A DNA stretch of 64,000 nt, from NCBI RefSeq assembly GCF_002443155.1, contig NZ_CP023667.1, positions 2,976,001 to 3,040,000 on the forward strand. Direction: 5' to 3'. The translations under genes and the position numbers were made by a program. How positions within the stretch are numbered: the stretch's first letter is position 1; each line of letters starts with the position of its first letter. The notes under the pieces are model-generated. The model did no database searches. It saw only the letters and a program-made list of their open reading frames with translations, and was not told the origin of the DNA. The DNA comes from Alcaligenes faecalis (GTDB taxonomy: Bacteria > Pseudomonadota > Gammaproteobacteria > Burkholderiales > Burkholderiaceae_B). Below, one piece after another: positions 29,036 through 47,748 of the stretch.

Positions 29036-29050
29036 TGGCACGGATGTTGC
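29036..29050 (+). promoter_or_regulatory. Sigma-54 promoter of dctA
   Basis: TGGCAC-GGATG-TTGC matches the -24/-12 consensus fully, with the GG and GC pairs separated by 10 bases. It lies about 127 bases before the dctA start, downstream of the DctD dyad. Confidence 0.9.
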
Positions 29051-29176
29051 TTTAGTCATGAGCTTATGGGCCGGGACATGGATCCCGGCGAGCGTAAACC
29101 GCCTGCCTACACAAAATTCCAAGCAGGTCACCAGCCGACTGCCAGGTTGGCTACATCAAGTCACGGAGACGACATC

Positions 29177-36474: not shown

Positions 36475-36951
36475 ATGAGTCTTGATTCCGTCAAACAGTT
36501 TTTTAACGAACACGCTGCCGATATCCAGGTGATTGAAACCACCGAAAGCACAGCTACCGTCGTGCTGGCCGCCCAGGTCCACCAAGTTGAACCGGGGCAA
36601 ATTGCCAAAACACTTAGCTTGAAAGTGGGCGATAAAGTGGTGCTGCTGGTCGCTCGGGGCGATGCCCGTCTGGACAACAAGAAGCTGCGTACTGCCTTTG
36701 GCACGCGCGTAAAAATGCTGGATCTGGAAAGTACCGAAGCCTTGACGGGCCACCCGGTAGGCGGGGTTTGTCCCTTTGGTCTGGCCACGCCACTGGAGAT
36801 CTACTGTGACCTTTCCCTGCAGGGCTACGACACGGTCTTGCCTGCGGCAGGCTCTATCAATTCTGCAGTACGCATCACCCCACAACGCCTGGCCGAGCTG
36901 ACCAGCGCGCAATGGATTGATGTGACCCAGCCGCCTCAAGTCCAATCCTGA
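36475..36951 (+). CDS. YbaK/ProX-type aminoacyl-tRNA deacylase
   Basis: A 158-residue editing domain of the YbaK/EbsC/ProX family, which hydrolyses mischarged Cys- or Ala-tRNA(Pro). The typical pattern is seen in VLAAQVHQVEPGQIAKTLSLKVGDKVVLLVARGDARLDNKKLRTAF (with the catalytic Lys in AKTL), the GHPVGGVCPFGL loop and the C-terminal LPAAGSINSAVRITPQRLAEL. Transcribed alone, just before the sigma-54 stress island. Whether Cys or Ala is the edited amino acid is not clear from sequence. Confidence 0.85.
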   Translation: MSLDSVKQFFNEHAADIQVIETTESTATVVLAAQVHQVEPGQIAKTLSLKVGDKVVLLVARGDARLDNKKLRTAFGTRVKMLDLESTEALTGHPVGGVCPFGLATPLEIYCDLSLQGYDTVLPAAGSINSAVRITPQRLAELTSAQWIDVTQPPQVQS

Positions 36952-37135
36952 ACAAGCACTGTTATCGGGTCAGATTTTGACCTGCTTGCCTGTGTCTCCC
37001 AGGCACAGGCAAGCCTGCCCATGCCCGACTGGTAAACAGATGTGTAAGTTGAATACGTACATGACCAGGCGACAAAAAACACCACAAGAGCCCAAGGCAT
37101 AGGGACGCGGCCACACGGTATTTTCAGCAGAGAAG

Positions 37136-37150
37136 CGGGCTCGTACTTGC
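37136..37150 (+). promoter_or_regulatory. Weak sigma-54-like promoter before the activator gene
   Basis: CGGGCT-CGTAC-TTGC has GG and GC separated by 10 bases and TTGC intact, 86 bases before the activator start. The -24 half is poorer than in the other five island promoters, so this one is tentative. Confidence 0.35.
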
Positions 37151-37235
37151 CATATCTGGTAACGAATGCCCTTTCTATCCTGATTAGGATAAGACATCGG
37201 ATTTCAAATTAACTTTGTTTATCCCAGAGGAAAAA

Positions 37236-38333
37236 ATGCCCCACCTATTATTGCTGGAGACAGATTCAGCTTTTATAAGCCTTTTTTTGGCACTGGCGCG
37301 GCAGATGAACTTTTCCGCCATCGCTGCAAATACGCCAGAAGATGTTCTGATCCGCTATCACCAGAAAACTCCTGATGCCCTGCTGTTTGGGCCCAGTGTC
37401 AGCGCTCTGCAGGCCCAGGAGTTGAGCCGCCGCATCGGAATGGATGCGGTGGAAAGCTATACCTTGCACGCCTACAGTGGCTCGACCCAGCAAGACCAGG
37501 CGCAACTGCGTACCTTGCTGGAGCAATTAAAAGCCAAGTACCAAAACGGCAGCTGTGCTTTCCAAGCCGAGCAGCATCATGACTTCGGCGAGTTTGTAGG
37601 CTGTTCCGCCCCCATGAAAAAACTCTATGAAAAGATCAGCAAAGTGGCCAGCACCGATCTGCCCGTGCTACTGATTGGCGAGAGTGGCACCGGCAAGGAA
37701 CTGGCGGCCCGGGCCATTCACCGCTGCAGCGCTCGCAAGGAACAGGCGTATGTACCCATCAACTGTTCAGCCATTTCAGAGCAGTTGATCGAAAGCGAGC
37801 TGTTCGGCCACGAAAAAGGCAGTTTTACCGGAGCCGAACGTAATCGGCAGGGCTACTTTGAACTGGCTGACCAGGGCACGCTGTTCCTGGACGAAATCAC
37901 CGAAATGCCCATAGACGCCCAAACCAAGCTGCTGCGCGCATTGGAAAATGGCGAATACATGAAGGTAGGTGGCGACAAGTTGATCAAACATGATGCCCGC
38001 ATCATCGCTGCGACCAATCGCCCGCCCATGCGCGCTATTGAGGACAAGAAACTGCGCGAAGATCTGTATTACCGCCTGGGGGTCTTTCCGATTCAAATCC
38101 CCCCCCTGCGTGAACGCGGCGACGATGCCGTCCTGATCGCCCAGCACTTGGTAGAACAGCTGAATCAGGAGCATCAGCAGAACCGCTCACTGAGCCTGGC
38201 CAGCATGAAGGAGATCGAGCGCTATCACTGGCCGGGCAATATACGCCAGCTACGCAATGCGGTACTGCGCAGCTATGTAATGAGCAACAGCGATCAAGTG
38301 GAAATCAATATGGAGGCCGACCCCATGGAATAA
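37236..38333 (+). CDS. Sigma-54 activator lacking a DNA-binding domain
   Basis: A 365-residue bacterial enhancer-binding-type protein. Residues 1 to about 100 resemble a receiver ([10 protein letters not shown]) but the phospho-acceptor position has no Asp ([10 protein letters not shown]), so it looks like a pseudo-receiver. The AAA+ domain is complete: Walker A GESGTGKE 148-155, sigma-54 loop GSFTGA 195-200 (usual GAFTGA with Ala to Ser), Walker B TLFLDE 215-220, REDLYYRL 274-281 and sensor [12 protein letters not shown] 334-343. The protein ends about 22 residues later, without the Fis-type helix-turn-helix. GAGG precedes the ATG. It may activate promoters from solution, probably with the sigma-54 paralogue encoded 0.8 kb away. 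Confidence 0.85.
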
Positions 38334-38373
38334 ATGCTTGCCCAGTGTGGAACTGAGCAAGCTTGGCAAAAGC

Positions 38374-38910
38374 TTACTGGGCAACGGCAGGCTTCATGGA
38401 GTCTGCCAGCGCATGAGCATGTCGCAAGTGCTGCTGCAGCATGGGCAAAGCGTCCTGGGCAAAACCCATGACCTCCTTGTCTTTGCCGTCCTTGATGTAG
38501 TCCTCAAAGAGCTTGATGGTGTCCTCATGTGCTTTGACCGCCGCTTCGTTGGCATAGTCCGCATCAAACTGTTCACCCTCCGCGCCCTCCAGCATGGAAA
38601 TCTTGCCACGCTGCATCAGGCTGGGCTCCGTGGGCAACTCCACCTTGCGTGCCTGTGCCAGCGTCTGCAGTTCCTGGGCCAGTTGCTCGTGCTCATCAAT
38701 CATCATTTGCGCAAACTCGACCACGCGCTGGTTCTTGCTGCGCTCCAGAGCCAGCTTGGCGGCCGCCACCTCAAAATGACCCGATTTCGCTGCATCTCTC
38801 ATAAACCCTTTATCTGGAGAAAACAGCTCAATGGCAGCAGCACTACGAACACTCAAGCCCAATACCAGGCCCGCCGCCACTGCCAAACACATCAGATGTC
38901 TTACTCGCAT
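38374..38910 (-). CDS. DUF4142 exported protein
   Basis: A 178-residue protein with a signal peptide (about residues 1-26, ending AAAIE) and a ferritin-like four-helix DUF4142 domain: KGFMRDAAKSGHFEVAAAKLALERSKNQRVVEFAQMMIDEHEQLAQEL, then KAHEDTIKLFEDYIKDGKDKEVMGFAQDALPMLQQHL. Family members are common in stress gene clusters, function unknown. GGAGG precedes the ATG. It converges on the activator gene and its promoter region holds a minus-strand sigma-54-like element (39005-39019) facing away from rpoN2, which ties it to the island. Confidence 0.82.
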   Translation of the reverse strand: MRVRHLMCLAVAAGLVLGLSVRSAAAIELFSPDKGFMRDAAKSGHFEVAAAKLALERSKNQRVVEFAQMMIDEHEQLAQELQTLAQARKVELPTEPSLMQRGKISMLEGAEGEQFDADYANEAAVKAHEDTIKLFEDYIKDGKDKEVMGFAQDALPMLQQHLRHAHALADSMKPAVAQ

Positions 38911-39004
38911 CGCACACCTCCAAACACATCATTACCTGAAGCCAGGACACCCTTGCTGACCCAAAGCCTGTCTACATGACCAGCAAAGCCTTGACAGTGT
39001 CCTA

Positions 39005-39019
39005 GCAAAGACCGTACCC
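39005..39019 (-). promoter_or_regulatory. Sigma-54-like promoter of the DUF4142 gene
   Basis: On the minus strand GGGTAC-GGTCT-TTGC, followed by TAG, with GG and GC 10 bases apart. It lies 95 bases before the DUF4142 start and is back-to-back with the rpoN2 promoter. Confidence 0.65.
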
Positions 39020-39038
39020 GCTCCACAGGCTTAGGGTC

Positions 39039-39053
39039 GGGAACAGAACTTGC
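39039..39053 (+). promoter_or_regulatory. Sigma-54-like promoter of rpoN2
   Basis: GGGAAC-AGAAC-TTGC followed by TA, with GG and GC 10 bases apart, 90 bases before the rpoN2 start. A short inverted repeat (TGCTAT-GTAG-ATAGCA, 39051-39066) overlaps its -12 end. It implies that the sigma factor drives its own synthesis. Confidence 0.65.
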
Positions 39054-39142
39054 TATGTAGATAGCACAGAGCCCGGATCATCCAGGCACCTGTGGCCGAA
39101 GAACCATCTGTTCTTCATCACGAACAACAAGGAGACTCCACC

Positions 39143-40519
39143 ATGAAGCTGGAAATGGTTCCGCAGCTACACATGCAGCAAACTCTCTCGCAACGACTGC
39201 AACAGTCCGCGCAAATCCTGCAGCTCTCGGCGCAGGAACTGCAGACGCTGGTACAGGACAGCCTGCAAGACAATCCACTACTGGAACCCGGCCCGGAGCC
39301 CGCGCCCCCGGCTCCCGTACGGGAGGGGCTCTCCCATCCTGTCTCCAGTGAAAGCGCCCACTTTGCCGATAACTACGACACGAGCAAGGCAATCCGCAGC
39401 CGTGACGAACAGATCCTGGACCATGTACGTTTGAGTCGCGCCAGCGAGCGTTGCAAGGCCTTATGCGCCCTGATCGTGAACGCACTGGATGACAACGGTT
39501 ATCTGCGCGATCACTTTGAAAATCTGCTCCCGGCCGGCTACGAACACGTCCCCCTCGCCGAGTGGCAAGCCGCCTTGGCGCTGGTCCAGTCCCTGTCTGT
39601 TCCCGGCACAGGCGCCCACTCCTTACCCGAGGCATTGCGCTTGCAGATCCAGGCGCGTCAGTCTCTTGACCCGGTTCTGAAACAGAGACTGCTCAAGCTA
39701 GTGTCTACCGAGCTGCCCGCGCTGGCACAAGGCGAGTGGGCCCAAGTACAAAGCCGCCAGAACCTGTCGGATGCAGACTTTCATCAGGCTCTGCGCGAAC
39801 TGCAAAGCCTGGACCCCAATCCTGGCCTGGCATATCTGGAGCCGATGCGCCAGGCCATTACGCCAGACGTTCATGTCTACCGTGATGGCAAGCATTGGCG
39901 CGTGCTCGCGGACCCTCGCAGCCTGCCCCGGGTTCAGGTGCATCAGGAATATGCCGCCACCTTGGAGCAGCAGGCACGCACGCAGCAAAACCGCCCTTTG
40001 CACAGCGCCCTGACGCAGGCTCATTGGCTGGCCGAAAGCCTGGCGATGCGGCGCAGTACGGTGTGCCGCGTGGCTGAATTCATCGTCCGGCACCAGATCC
40101 TGTTTTTCGAGCTGGGCGAGCAAGGCATGCAGCCCCTGCGCATCAGCGACCTGGCCAAGGAGCTGGATCTGCATCAATCCACCATATCCAGAGCGACCGC
40201 CAACAAGTACATGAGCACTCCCTTTGGCACCTTGAGCTTCAGGCACTTTTTCTCCGGCGAGCTGGAAACTGATTTCGGTGGCAGTTGCTCCACCGCCTTG
40301 GTCAAAGAACAGATACGCCGCTTGATCGCCAAGGAACCAGACCACCAGCCTTTAAGCGATGTAGAACTGCATCAGGCACTGCGCCAGGATAGTGTGGAAC
40401 TGTCCAAACGAACCGTGACCAAGTACCGCCTGCAGCTGGGTATTCCCAATGCCCGCGAACGCCTGCAACGGGCACGCCTGCGAGCGGTCAGCGAGCAAAC
40501 TGCGCGCCCCTTTTACTGA
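39143..40519 (+). CDS. RNA polymerase sigma-54 factor, paralogue (RpoN2)
   Basis: A 458-residue sigma-54. Region I is Gln/Leu-rich (HMQQTLSQRLQQSAQILQLS, then NPLLE, residues 10-48) and serves activator response. The acidic region II is very short. The core-binding domain spans about 85-320. The helix-turn-helix is at 340-365 (LDLHQSTISRATANKYMSTP), and the RpoN box at 420-429 is SKRTVTKYR rather than the common ARRTVAKYR. AAGGAGA precedes the ATG. The gene is not in the lptB-rpoN-hpf context of the housekeeping rpoN; it sits among stress genes whose promoters have sigma-54-like elements. Most likely a second sigma-54 with a private regulon. Confidence 0.9.
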   Translation: MKLEMVPQLHMQQTLSQRLQQSAQILQLSAQELQTLVQDSLQDNPLLEPGPEPAPPAPVREGLSHPVSSESAHFADNYDTSKAIRSRDEQILDHVRLSRASERCKALCALIVNALDDNGYLRDHFENLLPAGYEHVPLAEWQAALALVQSLSVPGTGAHSLPEALRLQIQARQSLDPVLKQRLLKLVSTELPALAQGEWAQVQSRQNLSDADFHQALRELQSLDPNPGLAYLEPMRQAITPDVHVYRDGKHWRVLADPRSLPRVQVHQEYAATLEQQARTQQNRPLHSALTQAHWLAESLAMRRSTVCRVAEFIVRHQILFFELGEQGMQPLRISDLAKELDLHQSTISRATANKYMSTPFGTLSFRHFFSGELETDFGGSCSTALVKEQIRRLIAKEPDHQPLSDVELHQALRQDSVELSKRTVTKYRLQLGIPNARERLQRARLRAVSEQTARPFY

Positions 40520-40521
40520 GC

Positions 40522-40536
40522 AGGTACGCAATTTGC
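40522..40536 (+). promoter_or_regulatory. Sigma-54-like promoter of otsA
   Basis: AGGTAC-GCAAT-TTGC followed by TG, with GG and GC 10 bases apart, starting 3 bases after the rpoN2 stop and 47 bases before the otsA ATG. Transcription would begin near 40548. Confidence 0.65.
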
Positions 40537-40583
40537 TGATTCTCCAACGAAGATCCCTTAATAAAACAAAGCGAGAATCAGCA
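40534..40583 (+). promoter_or_regulatory. Inverted repeat able to mask the otsA start
   Basis: An 11-base arm at 40534-40544 (TGCTGATTCTC) is perfectly complementary to 40573-40583 (GAGAATCAGCA), which covers the ribosome site and the first base of the otsA ATG. The left arm lies before the expected sigma-54 start point, so only read-through mRNA from rpoN2 would form the stem. Confidence 0.45.
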
Positions 40584-41983
40584 TGAGCAAAATCATTGTG
40601 GTGTCCGTACGCGTGGCCAGTTCCGATCAACCTTGCACAGGCGGGCTGGCCGTCGCGGTAGATCAATTACTAAAGCGACAGCGAACCCAGGGCATCTGGC
40701 TAGGATGGAACGGCCAATGTGATTCACAGCCAGACTCGCTGCGCACAGAGGACCGGGGCAGTTATCAGGCCGTAACCTTCTCCTTTACCCAGGAGCAATA
40801 CGAGCAGTTTTACTGCGGCTACGCGAACACCTGCCTGTGGCCCGCCTTTCACTACCGTCTGGACCTGATGGACTTCCAGACTCATCATTTCCAGCAGTAC
40901 CTGGAGATCAACCGGCAAATTGCCGCGTACTTGAGCCAGATTGCTGATGAGGACGACCTGATCTGGGTACATGACTACCACCTGATGCCATTGGCCCATT
41001 TTTGCCGCGAGCAAGGCATGCAGCAGGCCATTGGGCTGTTCTTTCACACCCCCTTCCCTTGCCCGGAGATTTTGCGCTCCATTCCCCGTTACGAACAATG
41101 GCTGCCCATGCTGCGCCATTACGACCAGATCGGCGTCCAAAGCCGCAGCGACCATAGTGCGCTGATCGCCGCCCTGCAGACTCTGGCCCCACCACGCACA
41201 AGCGACCCGCAGGCCCGTGTAGTCCGCACAGACGTTTACCCCATCAGTATCGATATAGACCTGATTCAGGCCTTGGCCAAAGCCCCCTCATGGGACGATG
41301 GGAACACCCCCATCGAGCCGGTCCACGGGCCTGACACCATTATCAGCGTGGACAGACTGGACTACACCAAGGGCCTGGCCTATCGCCTGCGCATTCTGGA
41401 TACCCTGCTACGCCGTTATCCCACGTTGCATGGGCAGACAACCTACGTGCAGATTGCGCCCTCTACCCGCGGCGATATCCACGACTATCAGGTCATGCGG
41501 GAAGAACTGGAAAGTCTGGCGGGTCAGATTAACGGGCAGTTTGCCACGCCAGGATGGAGTCCGGTGGTATACATGAACCGCGCCTTTCCGGCGGGCCAGC
41601 TCATGCGCATGTTGCGCCGCGCCCGCGTCGGTTTTATTGCTCCCTTGCGTGACGGGATGAATCTGGTTGCCAAGGAATATATCGCAGCCCAGGACCCCGA
41701 CGACCCCGGAGTACTCGTTCTGTCCACCTTTACCGGCGCGGCACAATCCCTGCAGGGCGGCTACCTGCCCGTGAACCCTTATGATGCCGACGCCAGCGCA
41801 CACAGCTTGTATCAAGCCTTGAACATGTCACTGGAGGAACGACGCCGGCGCCACCAGCATTTATTGATGCAATTGCGCCGGCAAGACCTGGGACAGTGGT
41901 GCGAACAGTTCCTGCATGACCTGAGCGCTAGCTCCGGCTCGAATCAGGCACATAGTCCTCTGGCTGAGCTTCCAGCATCCTGA
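40583..41983 (+). CDS. otsA: Trehalose-6-phosphate synthase
   Basis: A 466-residue GT20 glycosyltransferase that joins UDP-glucose and glucose-6-phosphate into trehalose-6-phosphate. It shows the family motifs WPAFHYR, DLIWVHDYHLMPLAHFCRE, IGLFFHTPFPCPEILRSIPR, ISVDRLDYTKGLAYRLRI and PLRDGMNLVAKEYIAAQ (sugar-nucleotide site), with Arg/Lys/Asp in SVDRLDYTKG. It makes the osmoprotectant with otsB, which lies in the KGG operon 2.5 kb on. Its own sigma-54-like promoter lies at 40522. The 3' end overlaps the convergent mscS gene by 56 bases. Confidence 0.94.
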   Translation: MSKIIVVSVRVASSDQPCTGGLAVAVDQLLKRQRTQGIWLGWNGQCDSQPDSLRTEDRGSYQAVTFSFTQEQYEQFYCGYANTCLWPAFHYRLDLMDFQTHHFQQYLEINRQIAAYLSQIADEDDLIWVHDYHLMPLAHFCREQGMQQAIGLFFHTPFPCPEILRSIPRYEQWLPMLRHYDQIGVQSRSDHSALIAALQTLAPPRTSDPQARVVRTDVYPISIDIDLIQALAKAPSWDDGNTPIEPVHGPDTIISVDRLDYTKGLAYRLRILDTLLRRYPTLHGQTTYVQIAPSTRGDIHDYQVMREELESLAGQINGQFATPGWSPVVYMNRAFPAGQLMRMLRRARVGFIAPLRDGMNLVAKEYIAAQDPDDPGVLVLSTFTGAAQSLQGGYLPVNPYDADASAHSLYQALNMSLEERRRRHQHLLMQLRRQDLGQWCEQFLHDLSASSGSNQAHSPLAELPAS

Positions 41984-42989
41984 CTCGTACAAACGCCTCC
42001 GGTTGGTGCTGACTCAGATAGGCCACCAGGCGCTCTCTCAACAGACAGCGCAAATCGAACAAACGGCCCGAATCTGCAGCACTGACCAGGAATCGCAATT
42101 GCATACCCCACTCATTGGTATCGGTCACTTGCAAGACCTGAACGCGTCGATCCCACAGTTCAGAGGACTCACACAGGTGCTTGAATGCCGCGTTCAAGCC
42201 CTGCATTTCCACCTTGTAATCCACCCATAAAAACACCGTGCCCAACAACGAGGCACTGCGACGGGTCCAGTTCTGAAAAACGGTTTCTACAAACCATTGC
42301 AAGGGAACGATCAGACGGCGCTCGTCCCAGACACGTACCACCACATAGGTGGATGTAATTTCCTCAATCCGGCCCCACTCCCCCTCCACAATCACCACAT
42401 CATCAATACGTATGGGCTGGGTAAATGCAATCTGCAAACCGGCTATAAAGTTACCCAGCACCGGCCGGGCGGCAATACCGGCCACCAAGCCAGCGACCCC
42501 TGCTGATGCCAGCAAGCTGGTGCCCAGTTGCCGTGCGCCGGGTAGAACCATCAAAGCAAACGACAGCCCCAGCAAGACCAATAAAAAATGCACACTGCGT
42601 GCCAGGACCCGTGCCTGGGTGTAGATCTGACGCGAACGCAAATTGTCAGACACATTCAAGGGATGGCGCATCACCACAAGCTGGAACAAGGCTTCAACAG
42701 CACTCATCAGCATCCAGGTCGTGCAGATAATCAGCACGATCATGTCTCCAACAATCAGATAGGACTGCCACTTGGCCGAAATAGGTGCCAAGGGGATGCA
42801 CACGCGCAAAAACGCAGCCAGAAAAAACAGCCGTGACGGCCACCGTATTCGCTCGCTAAAAAGACGCAGAAAGTGCTCTGGCGAGGCCAGCCTTTCAATG
42901 ATCTTGCCGCCTAAAAAATGCACCAGCAGCAGTATCGCCCAGCCGCCCAGCAATAACAGCAGCCACATCCACCACGTCATTGACATCAT
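41928..42989 (-). CDS. MscS-type mechanosensitive channel
   Basis: A 353-residue channel: four or so N-terminal hydrophobic helices, then the MscS pore helix rich in Gly/Ala (SLLASAGVAGLVAGIAARPVLGNFIAGLQIAFTQPI, about residues 170-205). The beta domain follows (VVIVEGEWGRIEEITSTYVVVRVWDERRLIVPLQWFVE) and a C-terminal cytoplasmic cage domain. It releases solutes when membrane tension rises. ATG 42989 has AGGAGAG 6-8 bases upstream and is the only strong start downstream of its sigma-54-like promoter; longer starts would lie upstream of the expected transcription start. Pairs logically with trehalose synthesis as the downshock valve. Confidence 0.88.
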   Translation of the reverse strand: MMSMTWWMWLLLLLGGWAILLLVHFLGGKIIERLASPEHFLRLFSERIRWPSRLFFLAAFLRVCIPLAPISAKWQSYLIVGDMIVLIICTTWMLMSAVEALFQLVVMRHPLNVSDNLRSRQIYTQARVLARSVHFLLVLLGLSFALMVLPGARQLGTSLLASAGVAGLVAGIAARPVLGNFIAGLQIAFTQPIRIDDVVIVEGEWGRIEEITSTYVVVRVWDERRLIVPLQWFVETVFQNWTRRSASLLGTVFLWVDYKVEMQGLNAAFKHLCESSELWDRRVQVLQVTDTNEWGMQLRFLVSAADSGRLFDLRCLLRERLVAYLSQHQPEAFVRVRMLEAQPEDYVPDSSRS

Positions 42990-43023
42990 GATTGCTCTCC
43001 TGAAAAACATGTCTCCAGATACA

Positions 43024-43038
43024 GCAACTTGTGTGCCG
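43024..43038 (-). promoter_or_regulatory. Sigma-54-like promoter of mscS
   Basis: On the minus strand CGGCAC-ACAAG-TTGC, a near-consensus -24/-12 element; transcription would begin near 43012, giving a leader of about 23 bases with the AGGAG site. Back-to-back with the KGG operon promoter. Confidence 0.72.
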
Positions 43039-43058
43039 CTACCTGAGCCAAAACCGTC

Positions 43059-43073
43059 AGGCACGCTTTGTGC
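43059..43073 (+). promoter_or_regulatory. Sigma-54-like promoter of the KGG operon
   Basis: AGGCAC-GCTTT-GTGC with GG and GC 10 bases apart (one change in TTGC), 54 bases before the KGG start codon. It would drive KGG, SDR, otsB, DUF3182 and hydrolase genes as one unit. Confidence 0.6.
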
Positions 43074-43086
43074 TGGGCAAGTCATA

Positions 43087-43104
43087 ACCAATCACGTGAT
43101 TGGT
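43087..43104. promoter_or_regulatory. Perfect 18-bp palindrome in the KGG leader
   Basis: ACCAATCACGTGATTGGT reads the same on both strands. It begins near the predicted transcription start of the KGG operon. It could be a binding site for a dimeric regulator with a CACGTG core or an mRNA hairpin. Confidence 0.55.
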
Positions 43105-43126
43105 GTTCTTTCTCAAGGAGAGTTAT

Positions 43127-43399
43127 ATGACCCAGCACACAGACAAACAGGATCATAAAGATCAACGTGGCTTTGCCTCCATGGACGACAAGAAGCAGCG
43201 TGAGATCGCAGCAGAAGGCGGGCGTGCCTCGCACGAAAAAGGCACAGCGCACGAGTTCAACTCCGAAGAGGCTCGCGAAGCCGGTGCCAAGGGTGGTCGC
43301 GCCGCCCATGAAAAGGGCACGGCCCATGAGTTTGACTCCGAGGAGGCCCGCAAGGCTGGCGCCAAGGGTGGCAAGGCTACCCAGGACCAGCGACGCTAA
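43127..43399 (+). CDS. KGG-repeat stress protein
   Basis: A 90-residue, very hydrophilic protein of the stress-induced KGG family (YciG-like). It contains three tandem GG units: KKQREIAAEGGRASHEKGTAHEF, SEEAREAGAKGGRAAHEKGTAHEF and SEEARKAGAKGGKATQ; the second and third units are near-identical at DNA level. There is no hydrophobic core, so it is probably disordered or weakly folded. The ATG follows AAGGAGA by 5 bases. First gene of a five-gene operon with SDR, otsB, DUF3182 and hydrolase genes. KGG proteins are induced in general stress in enterics; molecular role unknown. Confidence 0.88.
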   Translation: MTQHTDKQDHKDQRGFASMDDKKQREIAAEGGRASHEKGTAHEFNSEEAREAGAKGGRAAHEKGTAHEFDSEEARKAGAKGGKATQDQRR

Positions 43400-43484
43400 G
43401 CCTTAGCCAAGCCCCAGGTGGACGCGACGCCCCCTCCAGGGCCGCCGCGCCCTGTTCCATTCTTTGCCTATCCAAGGAGCCGTC

Positions 43485-44456
43485 ATGACAACGCGTCAAA
43501 CAATGAAAGAGCAACGCCACCTGCAAGAGCAGCAGGACCAAAAGGACAAGAACGGGGTCGGCCAAAACGAGCCCGTCACGCATGACAAAACCCATCCAGG
43601 CAGCGACTACCCCACTCCCCCCCTGCCCCAACAGCACCTGGAAAAGCCCGGATGTGAAAGTGATCTGGACCCGGCCCCCCGCTACGAAGCCTCCAGCTAC
43701 AAGGGCAGCGGCAAGCTGGAAGGAAAAGTAGCCGTGATTACCGGTGGGGACTCGGGCATAGGCCGGGCCGTTGCCGTGCTCTATGCACGAGAAGGTGCCG
43801 ATGTGGCGATTGTGTATTTGCACGAGGATGAAGATGCCGGACGCACTCGTCTGGCCGTCGAGGCCGAAGGCCGCCAATGCCTGACACTGCGCGGCGATGT
43901 GAAAGACCCTGAATTTTGCCGACAAGCGATTGAGCAGGTACTGGACCGCTTCGGTCACCTGAATATTCTGGTCAACAATGCCGGCTTTCAGGAACATGCC
44001 CAATCCTTGCTGGACCTGAGCCCGGAGCGACTCAATGAAACCTTCCACACCAATATCTATGGCTATATCTACATGGCCCAGGCCTGCCTGCCGCACCTTC
44101 ACGCGGGCGATGCCATCGTCAATACCAGCTCGGTCACAGCCTTGCGCGGGGCCGCTCATCTGCTGGACTACTCCAGCACCAAGGGCGCCATTATTGCCTT
44201 CACGTACTCCCTGGCGGCCAACCTGGCGCCCAAAGGTATACGTGTAAACGCGGTCGCTCCCGGACCCGTCTGGACCCCCTTGAACCCCGCCGACTCCCCG
44301 GCCGAAAAAATCCCCGAGTTTGGTGCCGATACGGTCTTTGGCCGCCCCGCCCAGCCGGAAGAACTGGCGCCTGCCTATGTCTACCTAGCCAGCCCGATCA
44401 CCGCCAGCTACATCACCGGCACCGTGCTCCCCATCACGGGTTACCCAGGAAGCTGA
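43485..44456 (+). CDS. General-stress short-chain dehydrogenase (YghA/YdaD-like)
   Basis: A 323-residue SDR with a long hydrophilic N-terminal extension (about 75 residues rich in Gln/Lys/Asp) typical of the YghA/YdaD stress subgroup. The Rossmann motif GGDSGIGRAVAVLYAREGADV lies at about residues 86-106, NNAG near 171, and the catalytic Ser and Tyr-x3-Lys in NTSSVTALRG and DYSSTKGAI. It would oxidise or reduce an alcohol/aldehyde with NAD(P). AAGGAG precedes the ATG by 5 bases. It lies between the KGG gene and otsB, one base before the latter. Confidence 0.87.
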   Translation: MTTRQTMKEQRHLQEQQDQKDKNGVGQNEPVTHDKTHPGSDYPTPPLPQQHLEKPGCESDLDPAPRYEASSYKGSGKLEGKVAVITGGDSGIGRAVAVLYAREGADVAIVYLHEDEDAGRTRLAVEAEGRQCLTLRGDVKDPEFCRQAIEQVLDRFGHLNILVNNAGFQEHAQSLLDLSPERLNETFHTNIYGYIYMAQACLPHLHAGDAIVNTSSVTALRGAAHLLDYSSTKGAIIAFTYSLAANLAPKGIRVNAVAPGPVWTPLNPADSPAEKIPEFGADTVFGRPAQPEELAPAYVYLASPITASYITGTVLPITGYPGS

Positions 44457-44457
44457 T

Positions 44458-45252
44458 ATGAATAACGCTCTGCATTTGGATCAGACCGCCTTGTTTCTGG
44501 ATCTGGACGGCACGCTGGTCCCCTTGGCTGCGCGGCCTGACCAGGTATTTCTTCCCCCGTCCACCGCCGGCCTGCTGCTGAATCTGCACGCTGCCTGCGA
44601 CGGCGCGGTGGCACTGGTTTCAGGCCGCGACTATGACAGCCTGCATATCGCCTGCACCAAGCTTCCGCTTGCCATGATCAGCAGCCACGGCGCAGCCATG
44701 TATGACGCCGAGGGTCAGGAATGCTGGAACATCCCGATCAACCCGGCTGAGCACCACAGCCTGTCCCGCTCTGTCGCCGCCCTGATCCACCCCTACTCAC
44801 TGGTTTGGATGGAGCGCAAATCGCACGGTGTGGCTGTGCACTTTCGGCAACGCCCTGAAGTTGGCGAGGCCTTGGCCACAGAACTGCAGGTGCTGTGCTC
44901 GGAATATCCCGGCTTTGATCTGATCCGTGGACATTGTGTCATCGAACTGCGCATGAGCGGCTTTGACAAAGGCCAAGCCCTGGCCCGGGCCCAACGCCTG
45001 CCCGCGTTCGCCGACCGCAAGCCCGTCATGATTGGCGACGACTTGACCGATGAGGCCGCCTTTGAGTTTGTGAACCAGAAAGGCGGGCTGAGCATACGCA
45101 TCGGTCCTCAGGAGCCAGCCAGCGCGGCCCAGCTTTCCTTGCCACACCCCTCTGACCTGCTGACACTTTTGCAAACCAGTCTGCTGGAGACGCGCTTTTT
45201 CTCCGAGCTGGCACAGCGAACGCCCTCAGGCGCCAAAACGGTTGCGCCATGA
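44458..45252 (+). CDS. otsB: Trehalose-6-phosphate phosphatase
   Basis: A 264-residue HAD phosphatase that removes the phosphate from trehalose-6-phosphate. The four HAD motifs are present: FLDLDGTLVPLAARPDQV (nucleophile Asp in DLDGT), ALVSGRDYDSL, GFDKGQALARA with Lys, and MIGDDLTDEAAFEFVN. Its partner otsA is in the same island but in a separate transcription unit. The gene starts one base after the SDR stop and ends 45 bases before the DUF3182 gene. Confidence 0.93.
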   Translation: MNNALHLDQTALFLDLDGTLVPLAARPDQVFLPPSTAGLLLNLHAACDGAVALVSGRDYDSLHIACTKLPLAMISSHGAAMYDAEGQECWNIPINPAEHHSLSRSVAALIHPYSLVWMERKSHGVAVHFRQRPEVGEALATELQVLCSEYPGFDLIRGHCVIELRMSGFDKGQALARAQRLPAFADRKPVMIGDDLTDEAAFEFVNQKGGLSIRIGPQEPASAAQLSLPHPSDLLTLLQTSLLETRFFSELAQRTPSGAKTVAP

Positions 45253-45297
45253 CTCGCTGACACTGGCCGCACTCTCTTTACTTAAAAGGATGGCCCC

Positions 45298-46422
45298 ATG
45301 AGCAAGATACTTACCTCTACGCCCAAGACCTCCTTGCAAATCAGCCTGCCCAGCAAGGGCTGCAACAAAGGCGCGCTCCAAAGTCTGGAATTCATGGCCA
45401 GGGAACTGGCGCAATTCCTGGATCTGCCTCGAGTCCATATTGACTATGAGGACCAGCTAAAGCCCAGCTCCGAAAACACTTACTACCTCCCCCTGCAGAC
45501 CTTGAGCCTGGAGCAGGCGCGACAACTGGGTATCGAACAGGCCTCCCAACTGTATGGGGGTGTAGTGCCACATGACTTTCTGGCCCATAAAACCGTCGCC
45601 CACCCCCTTCCCCAAGACGATATGGATCGCCCGGAAGGCTGGAACAATGAGCTGGGCCTGGCGTTACGGCACGCGGTCTTGCCAGGCTACAGCGTCTTTT
45701 CAAGAAACGACGCGCTACGCACAATGAGCCTTCTGGATGAAGCAGGCCAGGCCGGCATACGGGCCAAACTGGCCAGTGCTAATGCAGGCAAAGGCCAGAA
45801 GGTGATCTACAGCCGTCAAGAGCTGGAAGAGCTCTTGAACCTGCCGCCGTGGCAGAGTCAACTGGAACAGGGTCTGGTACTGGAGGAGAACCTGCTCGAT
45901 GGCGAGACCTTCAGCATCGGCCAGACCCAGGTGGGCGAGCATCTTTTTTCCTATATCGGCCAGCAACACCAGACCAACAACCTGCAGCACGAGTCCGTAT
46001 ATGGCGGCTCCAGCTTGCTACTGGTTCGCGGCGGGTTTCAGCAGTTGCTGCAACTCTCGGGCATGAAGCGCATTGAGCATCTGCTTGAGCTGACCATAAG
46101 CTACGAAAAAAACATCAGGCAGGCCTTTCCTGAACTGTATGCCTCACGCCGCAACTATGACCTCATCGTCGGTAAAAATGCGCGTGGCCACTACAAGGCA
46201 GCCGTACTGGAACATTCCTGGCGTTTCGGCGGAGCGTCCATTGCAGAGATTCTGGCCATCCGCACCCTGCAACGCCACCCTGAGCTCCAACATACCCACG
46301 CATGGACACGCGAGCGCTATCTGGACGATGCCAGCCTGGTGAAAAACTCCCCTCATCTTTACAGCCTCGACCAAGAAGACGAGGCTTATCTTGCCCGCTT
46401 CGGCGGCCCACTACCATCATGA
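45298..46422 (+). CDS. DUF3182 family protein (ATP-grasp-like)
   Basis: A 374-residue cytoplasmic protein that I place, by overall pattern, in the DUF3182 family. Residues GLALRHAVLPGYSVFSRNDALRTMSLLDEAGQAGIRAKLASANAGKGQKVIYSRQELEELL, EQGLVLEENLLDGETFSIGQTQVG and YDLIVGKNARGHYKAAVLEHSWRFGGAS resemble the nucleotide-binding layout of ATP-grasp ligases. No reaction is known. AAAGGATGGCCCC precedes the ATG. It overlaps the hydrolase gene by ATGA, so the two are translationally coupled and may act together on a carboxylate-containing product. Confidence 0.65.
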   Translation: MSKILTSTPKTSLQISLPSKGCNKGALQSLEFMARELAQFLDLPRVHIDYEDQLKPSSENTYYLPLQTLSLEQARQLGIEQASQLYGGVVPHDFLAHKTVAHPLPQDDMDRPEGWNNELGLALRHAVLPGYSVFSRNDALRTMSLLDEAGQAGIRAKLASANAGKGQKVIYSRQELEELLNLPPWQSQLEQGLVLEENLLDGETFSIGQTQVGEHLFSYIGQQHQTNNLQHESVYGGSSLLLVRGGFQQLLQLSGMKRIEHLLELTISYEKNIRQAFPELYASRRNYDLIVGKNARGHYKAAVLEHSWRFGGASIAEILAIRTLQRHPELQHTHAWTRERYLDDASLVKNSPHLYSLDQEDEAYLARFGGPLPS

Positions 46423-47180
46423 GTACGGAAATTTTCAACACCACCATCAAAGTGCCCCATCAGCACCTGGATGCACGCCTGCTAGTCCCCCAATCCCCTG
46501 TCCCTGGCATTTTGTTCGTGCACGGTTGGGGCGGCAGCCAGCACTTTGACCTGAAACGCGCCCACACCATTGCCGGTATGGGCTGTATTTGTCTGACCTT
46601 TGATCTTGCCGGGCACAATGCCAATCAGCACGAGCGCGAGAAAGTCACCCGAGAACAGAACTTTCAGGACATCTGCGCGGCCTTTGACACCTTGAGCAGC
46701 CACCCTATGGTGGACTCCAGCTCCATCGCCATTGTGGGGCACAGTTATGGCGCCTATCTGGCCTGCCTGTTAAGTGAATTTCGATCGGTACGCTGGCTCA
46801 GCTTGCTGGCTCCTGCCTTGTACCCGGACGACGATTGGCTGTCTCCAAAGGATCAGCTCAACCGAGAGTTGCTGCAGGACTACCGTCTGCATACTCATTC
46901 TCCGCAAGAGAACCGCGCCTTGCAGGCCTGCTCCAAATTCACGGGAGATGTTTTGCTGTTTGAAGCGGAATACGATGAGCTGATTCCCCGCCAGACCTTG
47001 CTAACGTATCGCCAAGCCTTCAGCCAGGCTCATTCCCTGACACATCGAGTGCTGGAAGGCAGCAACCACGCGCTGGACGAGAAAGTCGCCCAGCGTGATT
47101 ACTCCGTGCTGCTGTATCGCTGGATTCAGGAAATGATTATTGGCGCCCGTATTGGGCACCTGCCCAACAACACCACTTGA
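46419..47180 (+). CDS. Alpha/beta hydrolase
   Basis: A 253-residue serine hydrolase. The elements are the oxyanion-hole region FVHGWGGSQHFD, nucleophile elbow GHSYGAYLACLLSEF (Ser at about residue 110), acidic residue in LLFEAEYDELIPRQT, and catalytic His in EGSNHALDEK. No signal peptide. Its ATG overlaps the DUF3182 stop. It is the last gene of the KGG operon and ends one base before the convergent dioxygenase gene. Substrate unknown; family members include peptidases and esterases. Confidence 0.85.
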   Translation: MSTEIFNTTIKVPHQHLDARLLVPQSPVPGILFVHGWGGSQHFDLKRAHTIAGMGCICLTFDLAGHNANQHEREKVTREQNFQDICAAFDTLSSHPMVDSSSIAIVGHSYGAYLACLLSEFRSVRWLSLLAPALYPDDDWLSPKDQLNRELLQDYRLHTHSPQENRALQACSKFTGDVLLFEAEYDELIPRQTLLTYRQAFSQAHSLTHRVLEGSNHALDEKVAQRDYSVLLYRWIQEMIIGARIGHLPNNTT

Positions 47181-47181
47181 C

Positions 47182-47748
47182 TCACGCGACAGCCGGGCGG
47201 TTGGCATAGCCGGAGACAAACTCCTTGGCCTGCCCAGTCTGCGGGTCGAAGACGTGACGGCGTACCTTGCCGATATCCGCACCATAAACGTGAATGCTGA
47301 TGGACACCTGGTCGTCATACATATTGGAAACCTCGTGTATATCACCCACCGTGGGTGACACCACTTCCACCACGCCTGGTTCCAGAGTCTGTGTGTCTTG
47401 TTCTGTCATATGGCCGGTATCGGGATCACGGTCAAAAGGCCGGGAGCGTTCCGCGCCACGCAACATACCAATCAAGCCCCACACGGTATGGTCGTGGATA
47501 GGGGTTTTCTGGCCGGGACCCCACACAAAGCTGACCACGGAAAAGCGTTCCTGCGGACAGCAATACAGCAAGTACTGCTGATAAAACTGGGGATGGGGCT
47601 GGGTGTACTCCGAGGCCAGCCAATCGTCCTGGGCTACCAGTTCGCCCAGCAGGACACGGCCATCACGCAGGATATCCGCCTCGGCGACAGCCGGGCGGCC
47701 GGTCAATTCATTCATCCCTTGAATAAAACGCTCAAAACGGGGGTGCAT
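47182..47748 (-). CDS. Thiol dioxygenase (cysteine / 3-mercaptopropionate dioxygenase type)
   Basis: A 188-residue cupin of the cysteine dioxygenase family, which adds O2 to a thiol to give a sulfinate. Iron ligands are His85 and His87 in PIHDHTVWG and His138 in DIHEVSN; the SIHVYGAD segment supplies His153 and Tyr155 of the active site. Bacterial members act on cysteine or on 3-mercaptopropionate; the sequence alone does not settle which. It sits at the end of an acyl-CoA gene cluster, which favours an organosulfur carboxylate (inferred). Confidence 0.8.
   Translation of the reverse strand: MHPRFERFIQGMNELTGRPAVAEADILRDGRVLLGELVAQDDWLASEYTQPHPQFYQQYLLYCCPQERFSVVSFVWGPGQKTPIHDHTVWGLIGMLRGAERSRPFDRDPDTGHMTEQDTQTLEPGVVEVVSPTVGDIHEVSNMYDDQVSISIHVYGADIGKVRRHVFDPQTGQAKEFVSGYANRPAVA

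Follow-up and report, generated by a model that had tools for sequence, protein, structure and literature searches.

In the stretch of Alcaligenes faecalis DNA analyzed here, a 64,000-nt window (NZ_CP023667.1:2,976,001-3,040,000, forward strand; assembly GCF_002443155.1, hereafter genome G000, a single contig of 4.08 Mb), ten genes packed into positions 36952-47181 encode a second sigma-54 factor (RpoN2), an AAA+ sigma-54 activator (ACT) and a set of osmotic and general stress proteins. Judging from sequence and gene distribution, we consider it probable that this island is read by its own RpoN2, that its promoters are opened by ACT from solution, and that the arrangement is derived from a wider RpoN2 module; RpoN2, we infer, is a sigma-54 of stress type whose promoter code has shifted. 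A previous sequence-only reading of this DNA had proposed that a dedicated RpoN2 with a private activator replaces RpoS-type control of stress genes. That interpretation is partly supported, being right in outline, too strong on the replacement of RpoS and too narrow in scope; the missing DNA-binding domain of the activator was absent from its account.

A discrete island with its own sigma-54

Pfam named all ten island genes and matched every gene of the sequence-only reading, including the complete sigma-54 gene, the AAA+ activator and the stress genes. The rpoN2 gene (39143-40519, + strand, 458 residues) retains the AID, core-binding and DNA-binding domains as well as an RpoN box (SKRTVTKYR), scoring 368 bits with TIGR02395 vs. 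a cut-off of 277 (NCBIfam cut-offs were applied for OtsA, T6PP, TIGR02395 and TIGR02394). As the 4.08-Mb genome harbors two Sigma54_DBD genes, the designation of RpoN2 as a second sigma-54 is borne out.

The island occupies the gap between a ybaK-like gene for aminoacyl-tRNA editing (36475-36951, + strand; Pfam tRNA_edit) and a cysteine-dioxygenase-like gene (47182-47748, - strand; Pfam CDO_I). In 6 of 9 ybaK-bearing Alcaligenes genomes (G002, G003, G005, G007, G008 and G009), these flanking genes are adjacent without the island, with 50-60 bases between the flank matches in five genomes and ~530 in G005, while ACT and DUF4142 adjoin ybaK in G000, G001 and G004. The ybaK match is absent from G006, in which a shorter island, without otsA and without an mscS match, lies at another place. 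G004 and A. faecalis AU14 both have an RpoN2 island with 92-93% identity. Island-type RpoN2 (E<=1e-85) was found in 7 of 268 family genomes, comprising 4 of 10 Alcaligenes and 3 Paenalcaligenes (P. hominis, locus L039; a second island, L106; and genome G270, locus L297). Full-length activator matches (E<1e-100) coincide exactly with rpoN2 within Alcaligenes (4 of 10 genomes), three other genomes having weaker AAA-domain matches alone, and the proposed pairing of a dedicated RpoN2 with a linked activator is supported at the sequence level; otsA, encoding trehalose synthase, is present in 3 of 10 Alcaligenes genomes, every one of them island-bearing. Among the Paenalcaligenes islands, the activator is present in P. 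hominis and cut by the end of the locus in L106. On this comparison the block is a discrete stress island, apparently gained or lost as a unit.

No RpoS (TIGR02394) over cut-off was detected in any of 37 family genomes, G000 included and one genome being 75% complete; outside the family, 11 of 24 genomes from the order have it. The absence of RpoS is consistent with the proposed replacement of RpoS-type control; the replacement itself was overstated, as six island-less Alcaligenes genomes lack RpoS too.

Promoter elements of the island

We scored 150 bp upstream of each gene with a sigma-54 matrix based on consensus frequencies, which favors T at the first base, and compared the scores with 1000 Markov shuffles. 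Five units yielded best sites with p values of 0.004-0.005 each: DUF4142 (GGGTACGGTCTTTGCT, 39004-39019, - strand, 12.6 bits), rpoN2 (GGGAACAGAACTTGCT, 39039-39054, + strand, 11.9 bits), otsA (AGGTACGCAATTTGCT, 40522-40537, + strand, 13.6 bits), mscS (CGGCACACAAGTTGCT, 43023-43038, - strand, 14.8 bits) and the KGG operon (AGGCACGCTTTGTGCT, 43059-43074, + strand, 12.7 bits), vs. -2.5 to 8.6 bits (p 0.10 to 0.96) for nine further upstream regions within or next to the island. Combined over targets by Fisher's method, p was 4e-8 for the window, 7e-8 for G001, 5e-5 for G006 (three targets) and 3e-5 for P. hominis. The claim that sigma-54-like elements precede nearly every transcription unit therefore holds for these five units and fails in the window for the activator gene (0.9 bits), SDR and otsB, ahead of which we saw no supported element. 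Similarly, the element before rpoN2 would allow the autoregulation that had been proposed, but the activator gene is without a -24/-12 element in all genomes examined, so that only rpoN2 looks autoregulated.

The elements of the five units are retained, with some exceptions, in the seven island genomes of two genera. That of DUF4142 is found in 7 of 7 and that of otsA in all six otsA-bearing islands; the rpoN2 element is present in the four Alcaligenes islands and imperfect in P. hominis and L106, the mscS element is present in three Alcaligenes islands, and the KGG element precedes KGG in the four Alcaligenes islands and in P. hominis. G004, G001 and G006 have elements at the same units, less the two not matched in the last. 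In G270 and L106, in which the KGG gene was not found within the island, an element of the KGG-operon type sits ahead of the SDR gene, and in G270 the rpoN2-type element precedes a 187-aa open reading frame (ORF) lying ahead of rpoN2. DUF3182 has a clear element in Paenalcaligenes alone (P. hominis, L106 and G270). The element pairs DUF4142/rpoN2 and mscS/KGG stand back to back, and in those Alcaligenes genomes that were measured 35-36 bases separate the two starts.

We compiled 30 island sites (26 distinct), 22 of them chosen by the T-favoring matrix in five genomes, three from L106 picked visually or with a neutral pattern, and five of L297 by a pattern that excludes T and requires A or G at position 7. 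All of them have a purine (A or G) at position 7 and finish with TGCT; at position 1, A occurs in 15, G in 12 and C in 3 sites. T as the first base was seen in 0 of the 22 sites chosen by a matrix favoring it, and in 0 of 30 sites over seven genomes when the five L297 sites, picked by the T-excluding pattern, are counted. The compilation leaves out the P. hominis mscS (ACGCAC...), P. hominis rpoN2 (AAGCAC...) and L106 rpoN2 (AGGTCC...) sites as well as divergent elements facing extra genes in L039, L106 and L297; additional to the 30 are the mscS elements of L106 (GCGCAC) and L297 (GCGCAT) and the SDR-operon element of L106 (AGGCATGCTTTCTGCT).

Two classes of sigma-54 element in one genome

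For comparison, the same window contains a canonical sigma-54 element, TGGCACGGATGTTGCT (29036-29051, + strand), before what we take to be a DctA-like transporter gene, divergent from an ORF that is presumably a sensor kinase, both named by eye. Across G000 the canonical pattern TGGCAYRNNNNTTGCW has 14 matches vs. 3 for the reversed control; nine of the 14 lie outside large ORFs and precede an ORF by no more than 193 bases, and some of these ORFs are metabolic-looking by eye. By these motif counts, one genome holds the T class and, in the island, the V class of sigma-54 element. T at -11 was considered as an RpoN2-specific feature and rejected, as 12 of the 14 canonical TGGCAY matches of G000 end in T too.

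Since the island-type pattern VGGHACRNNNNNTGCT is not above control in G000, there would be few targets outside the island. A looser pattern, VGGNAYNNNNNNTGCT, gave 226 matches vs. 173 for the control, and a tighter one gave 26 vs. 13, with 22 of the 26 outside the island and mostly within ORFs. We noted one clear extra-island candidate at C1:2929309, where a V-type GGGAATGAAACTTGCT precedes by 37 nt a 195-aa ORF whose Gly-zipper match stays below the cut-off, and a weak one at C1:227217, 38 nt before a 94-aa ORF.

The RpoN box

In a tree of 59 RpoN sequences, one fully supported branch sets apart the 20 rows of RpoN1 and another the 5 rows of island RpoN2, and the other 34 rows do not form one group. 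Within the RpoN box (ARRTVAKYR), one position is A in 20 of 20 RpoN1 and S or T in 39 of 39 other copies compared, the latter comprising 33 wider copies with S (30) or T (3), five island copies with T and the intermediate L069 with T; T is also present in two copies from Burkholderia and one from Comamonadaceae. According to PMC4496707, the recognition helix of the RpoN box enters the major groove at -24, which makes a link between this residue change and the changed first base of the element plausible.

The activator

ACT (37236-38333, + strand, 365 aa) comprises a pseudo-receiver and an AAA+ domain, as seen with Pfam (Sigma54_activat, AAA_lid_14, no HTH_8) and by alignment with relatives composed of a receiver (REC), an AAA domain and a helix-turn-helix (HTH). 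It displays the Walker A motif (GESGTGKE) and a GAFTGA-type loop (GSFTGA), by which the AAA+ domain of bacterial enhancer-binding proteins is recognized, as well as the lid domain. The protein ends after the lid domain; a C-terminal Fis-type HTH is lacking in 5 of 5 complete island homologues (three of them analyzed with Pfam, no HTH_8) and present in all 11 wider-family activators aligned. In addition, the phosphorylatable receiver aspartate of NtrC-type response regulators is replaced in 4 of 4 Alcaligenes ACT proteins. Devoid of the Fis domain and with a degenerate receiver, ACT probably works from solution, without DNA contact, specificity being supplied by RpoN2.

ACT-like proteins are encoded near a second rpoN in 26 of 36 non-island loci, and most of these 26 carry two of them, namely a REC-AAA-HTH protein (~460 residues, 40-43% identical to ACT over the length of the latter) and an AAA-HTH protein (Pfam on one locus). 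We also observed a hybrid kinase with GAF, PAS, HisKA, HATPase and receiver domains beside the wider rpoN2 at L052:11169-14210 (Pfam), with similar genes at L051 (by clustering) and L043 (by eye); this kinase and its relatives are candidate sensors for the full-length activator.

RpoN2 in the wider family and order

RpoN2 islands occur in two genera, and well outside them RpoN2 also lies beside stress genes, with many relatives having RpoN2 next to HTH-bearing activators and stress genes. We scanned 36 non-island loci, two of which are rpoN1 loci, leaving positions 1 and 16 unscored, and obtained 74 promoter-placed rows, chance matches included. Elements of the rpoN genes themselves begin with T in 19 of 23 rows (19 of the 20 loci with an element) vs. 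3 of 51 rows for other genes (Fisher 5e-11).

We then counted VGGCACN5TTGCT in 79 family genomes, 12 further ones being left out, with the reversed motif as control. Mean counts were 15.2 vs. 5.7 in 44 genomes with multiple rpoN genes (2.66-fold), 9.0 vs. 5.2 in 25 with a single rpoN (1.74), 6.8 vs. 4.8 in five without rpoN (1.42) and 11.0 vs. 4.8 in the five island genomes. Genomes with multiple rpoN genes differ from those with at most one (p=1e-4), and their control counts are alike (p=0.30); this result for all 79 supersedes a split based on 65 hand-classified genomes, for which p was 2e-5, and is the weaker of the two. Of 23 matches inspected in G105 (6.2 Mb), ten lie 16-59 bases before an identified ORF (CinA, BON, GST, DUF3606, DUF421, nucleotidyl transferase, DUF2383, endonuclease/phosphatase, AI-2E transporter and a relative of the island SDR), five are without an ORF of 60 aa and eight are unclear or coding.

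On plasmid pBPJTT of Burkholderia pyrrocinia, rpoN2 has as neighbors genes for PRC, CBS, DUF3008, DUF1328, DUF3022, DUF3175, a glutamine-amidotransferase-like protein (DJ-1 type by name) and DUF1488, and is adjoined by treY-malQ-treZ (L300:14121-19410), i.e. trehalose by a different pathway and a second linkage of trehalose to RpoN2. V-type elements precede the CBS, amidotransferase and some hypothetical genes, and TGG elements precede DUF3175, one hypothetical gene and rpoN2. In B. stagnalis (L299), PRC- and CBS-like genes are ahead of rpoN2. Taken together, the Alcaligenes island looks like a condensed form of the wider RpoN2 module.

Other genes of the island

Besides rpoN2 and ACT, the island encodes a DUF4142 protein (38374-38910, - strand; PF13628, 147 bits); an otsA-like trehalose-6-phosphate synthase of family GT20 (40583-41983, + strand; Glyco_transf_20, 372 bits); an MscS-type mechanosensitive channel (41928-42989, - strand; MS_channel_2nd); a 90-aa KGG-repeat stress protein (43127-43399, + strand; KGG, three repeats); a short-chain dehydrogenase (SDR; 43485-44456, + strand; adh_short_C2, and PRK06701 at 451.5 bits, above the cut-off of 413), for which the name YghA-like comes from the sequence-only reading; the otsB trehalose-phosphatase (44458-45252, + strand; Trehalose_PPase, and TIGR00685 (T6PP) at 118 vs. 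a cut-off of 68.05); a DUF3182 protein (45298-46422, + strand; Pfam 338 bits), predicted to be an ATP-grasp enzyme based on the fold assignment in PMC4431377; and, as the last gene, an alpha/beta hydrolase (46419-47180, + strand; Pfam). The name otsA can be kept by family and not as an equivalog, the protein scoring 478.2 bits, under the NCBIfam OtsA cut-off of 564.85.

Several peculiarities were seen in the Paenalcaligenes islands. In L039 and L106 an inverted repeat with a T-rich tail lies just upstream of the SDR gene (by eye), as if transcription partly stopped there. L106 (1310-1900) and G270 have an additional ORF of 187-196 aa, membrane-protein-like by eye, between DUF4142 and rpoN2. 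The mscS matches of G270 are in two different reading frames, so this gene may be broken or misassembled.

Discussion

The gene content, co-occurrence, element conservation, domain loss and RpoN-box difference described above could be accommodated in the following scheme. RNA polymerase with RpoN2, rather than RpoN1, would transcribe the island genes, using VGGHAY-R-NNNN-B-TGCT before DUF4142, rpoN2, otsA, mscS and the KGG-SDR-otsB-DUF3182-hydrolase operon. ACT, having kept the GSFTGA loop that contacts sigma-54 and lost the DNA-binding domain and, in Alcaligenes, the receiver aspartate, would open these complexes from solution with no enhancer; if ACT is enhancer-independent, specificity would come from RpoN2 and its promoter code and not from activator binding sites. 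Output would be set by the amount of ACT or by some input to it, presumably a stress, and rpoN2 would amplify itself. With respect to descent, we surmise that the island arose from a wider module, rather than the reverse; in that module rpoN2 and stress genes are accompanied by a REC-AAA-HTH activator, frequently also by a second activator of AAA-HTH type and in some cases by a hybrid kinase.

A number of observations weigh against this scheme. The three Paenalcaligenes mscS elements have C as second base (ACGCAC, GCGCAC and GCGCAT ... TTGCT), i.e. CG and not GG. No good element precedes P. hominis rpoN2 within 150 bp (p=0.91), although an imperfect AAGCAC...CTGCT is present farther upstream, with AGGTCC at the L106 counterpart. 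The P. hominis ACT retains the receiver aspartate, and its gene is at the far end of the island; in G270, no ACT was detected in the 18 kb covered, the contig beginning just beyond the island. A large island-type regulon in G000 was rejected, with 46 matches to VGGHACRNNNNNTGCT vs. 55 for the control, and VGGCACN5TTGCT is also in excess in single-rpoN genomes. The branch of island RpoN2 is long and has no firm place among RpoN2. Finally, a Comamonadaceae plasmid rpoN (L301) has a T-type box, an A-type element of its own and an adjoining activator, yet no stress neighborhood.

Might RpoN1, the housekeeping copy, read the island promoters instead, together with ACT or a different activator, RpoN2 being redundant or specialized and devoid of a private code? 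RpoN1 is present in the genome and could read the island elements, which also counts against our scheme. A single base accounts for most of the difference between canonical and island elements, the T at -11 being common to both. However, RpoN2 is never apart from these elements in seven islands, six Alcaligenes genomes keep RpoN1 without the island, and the first-base split tracks the RpoN-box difference, and we deem this explanation unlikely. We hold an equally low expectation that RpoN2 runs the island while another genomic activator drives its promoters, with ACT modulating only. G000 does encode at least one further AAA-domain relative, with 46% identity across the domain, and the failure to find ACT in the stretch of G270 covered fits such an arrangement, as does the fact that activation from solution usually needs high amounts of activator; against it, full-length ACT and rpoN2 co-occur exactly within Alcaligenes, and no common repeat stood out by eye between the back-to-back promoters. 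It seems far less probable still that we are dealing with a common accessory island for osmotolerance, with sigma-54 parts as passengers and elements as relics: although its patchy presence (7 of 268 family genomes) and the empty site are what such a cassette would show, the elements persist at several units over deep divergence (RpoN2 40% identical), and chance is made unlikely by the shuffles.

Beyond the island, we give roughly even chances to a broader proposal, in which RpoN2 would be the general-stress sigma factor of the RpoS-less Alcaligenes family and, in other Burkholderiales, a supplementary one. Here the A to S/T change in the box would read non-T promoters, stress and metabolic sigma-54 programs would run in parallel, and RpoN1 would feed RpoN2 in the wider family; in the island, whose activator is without a DNA-binding domain, RpoN2 would feed itself. 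If this is true, sigma-54 control of stress would amount to an ATP-driven, tightly closed stress switch, two sigma-54 paralogues would be separated by one promoter base and one RpoN-box residue, and a function would be suggested for the second sigma-54 of Burkholderiales, described as 'enigmatic' in Ralstonia (PMC4371752). The ten-gene island is a compact version suited to reconstitution.

Among open-access titles and the opening parts of abstracts, we found no description of a sigma-54 general stress regulon in the Alcaligenes/Alcaligenaceae group. A Bordetella report deals with an sRNA-controlled sigma-54 activator whose regulon is given as unknown (PMC11722255), rpoN is among the genes raised inside macrophages with no regulon given (PMC6917644), and the osmotic genes of A. 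faecalis Mc250 are listed with neither trehalose nor RpoS (PMC7643998).

The closest known counterpart is RpoN2 of Ralstonia solanacearum, likewise a second Burkholderiales sigma-54, two rpoN copies being said to occur in many Burkholderiales; it is not redundant with rpoN1, its expression requires rpoN1, and its role 'remains enigmatic' (PMC4371752). The T-type element before most wider-family rpoN2 genes predicts just such an rpoN1 dependence; the Ralstonia RpoN2, which we compare here by description, could not be linked to any phenotype (PMC4371752). Paralogous sigma-54 factors, as here, are also found as rpoN2 in Xanthomonas oryzae, where the copies have separate jobs and that of rpoN2 is flagellar rather than general stress, and as multiple RpoN in Rhodobacter sphaeroides (cited in PMC4371752).

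In comparing the island with other stress and sigma-54 systems more generally, we note that general stress responses are regarded as a matter of the sigma-70 family (RpoS, SigB and EcfG). Target lists of RpoS and EcfG include trehalose, KGG and YghA-type SDR genes, similar in kind to those of the island; the island differs in having a paralogue of sigma-54, for which an AAA+ activator would be required, in a family with RpoS in 0 of 37 genomes. The Rhodobacter RpoN paralogues serve nitrogen fixation and flagella, unlike general stress. With respect to ACT, sigma-54 activators without an HTH are known in FlgR of Helicobacter and Campylobacter, CtcC of Chlamydia and FleT of Rhodobacter, all sharing with ACT the AAA+ domain with the sigma-54 loop, the lack of a DNA-binding domain and a presumed action from solution. 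In contrast to these, ACT is linked to a dedicated sigma-54 and stress genes, and its receiver is degenerate in Alcaligenes.

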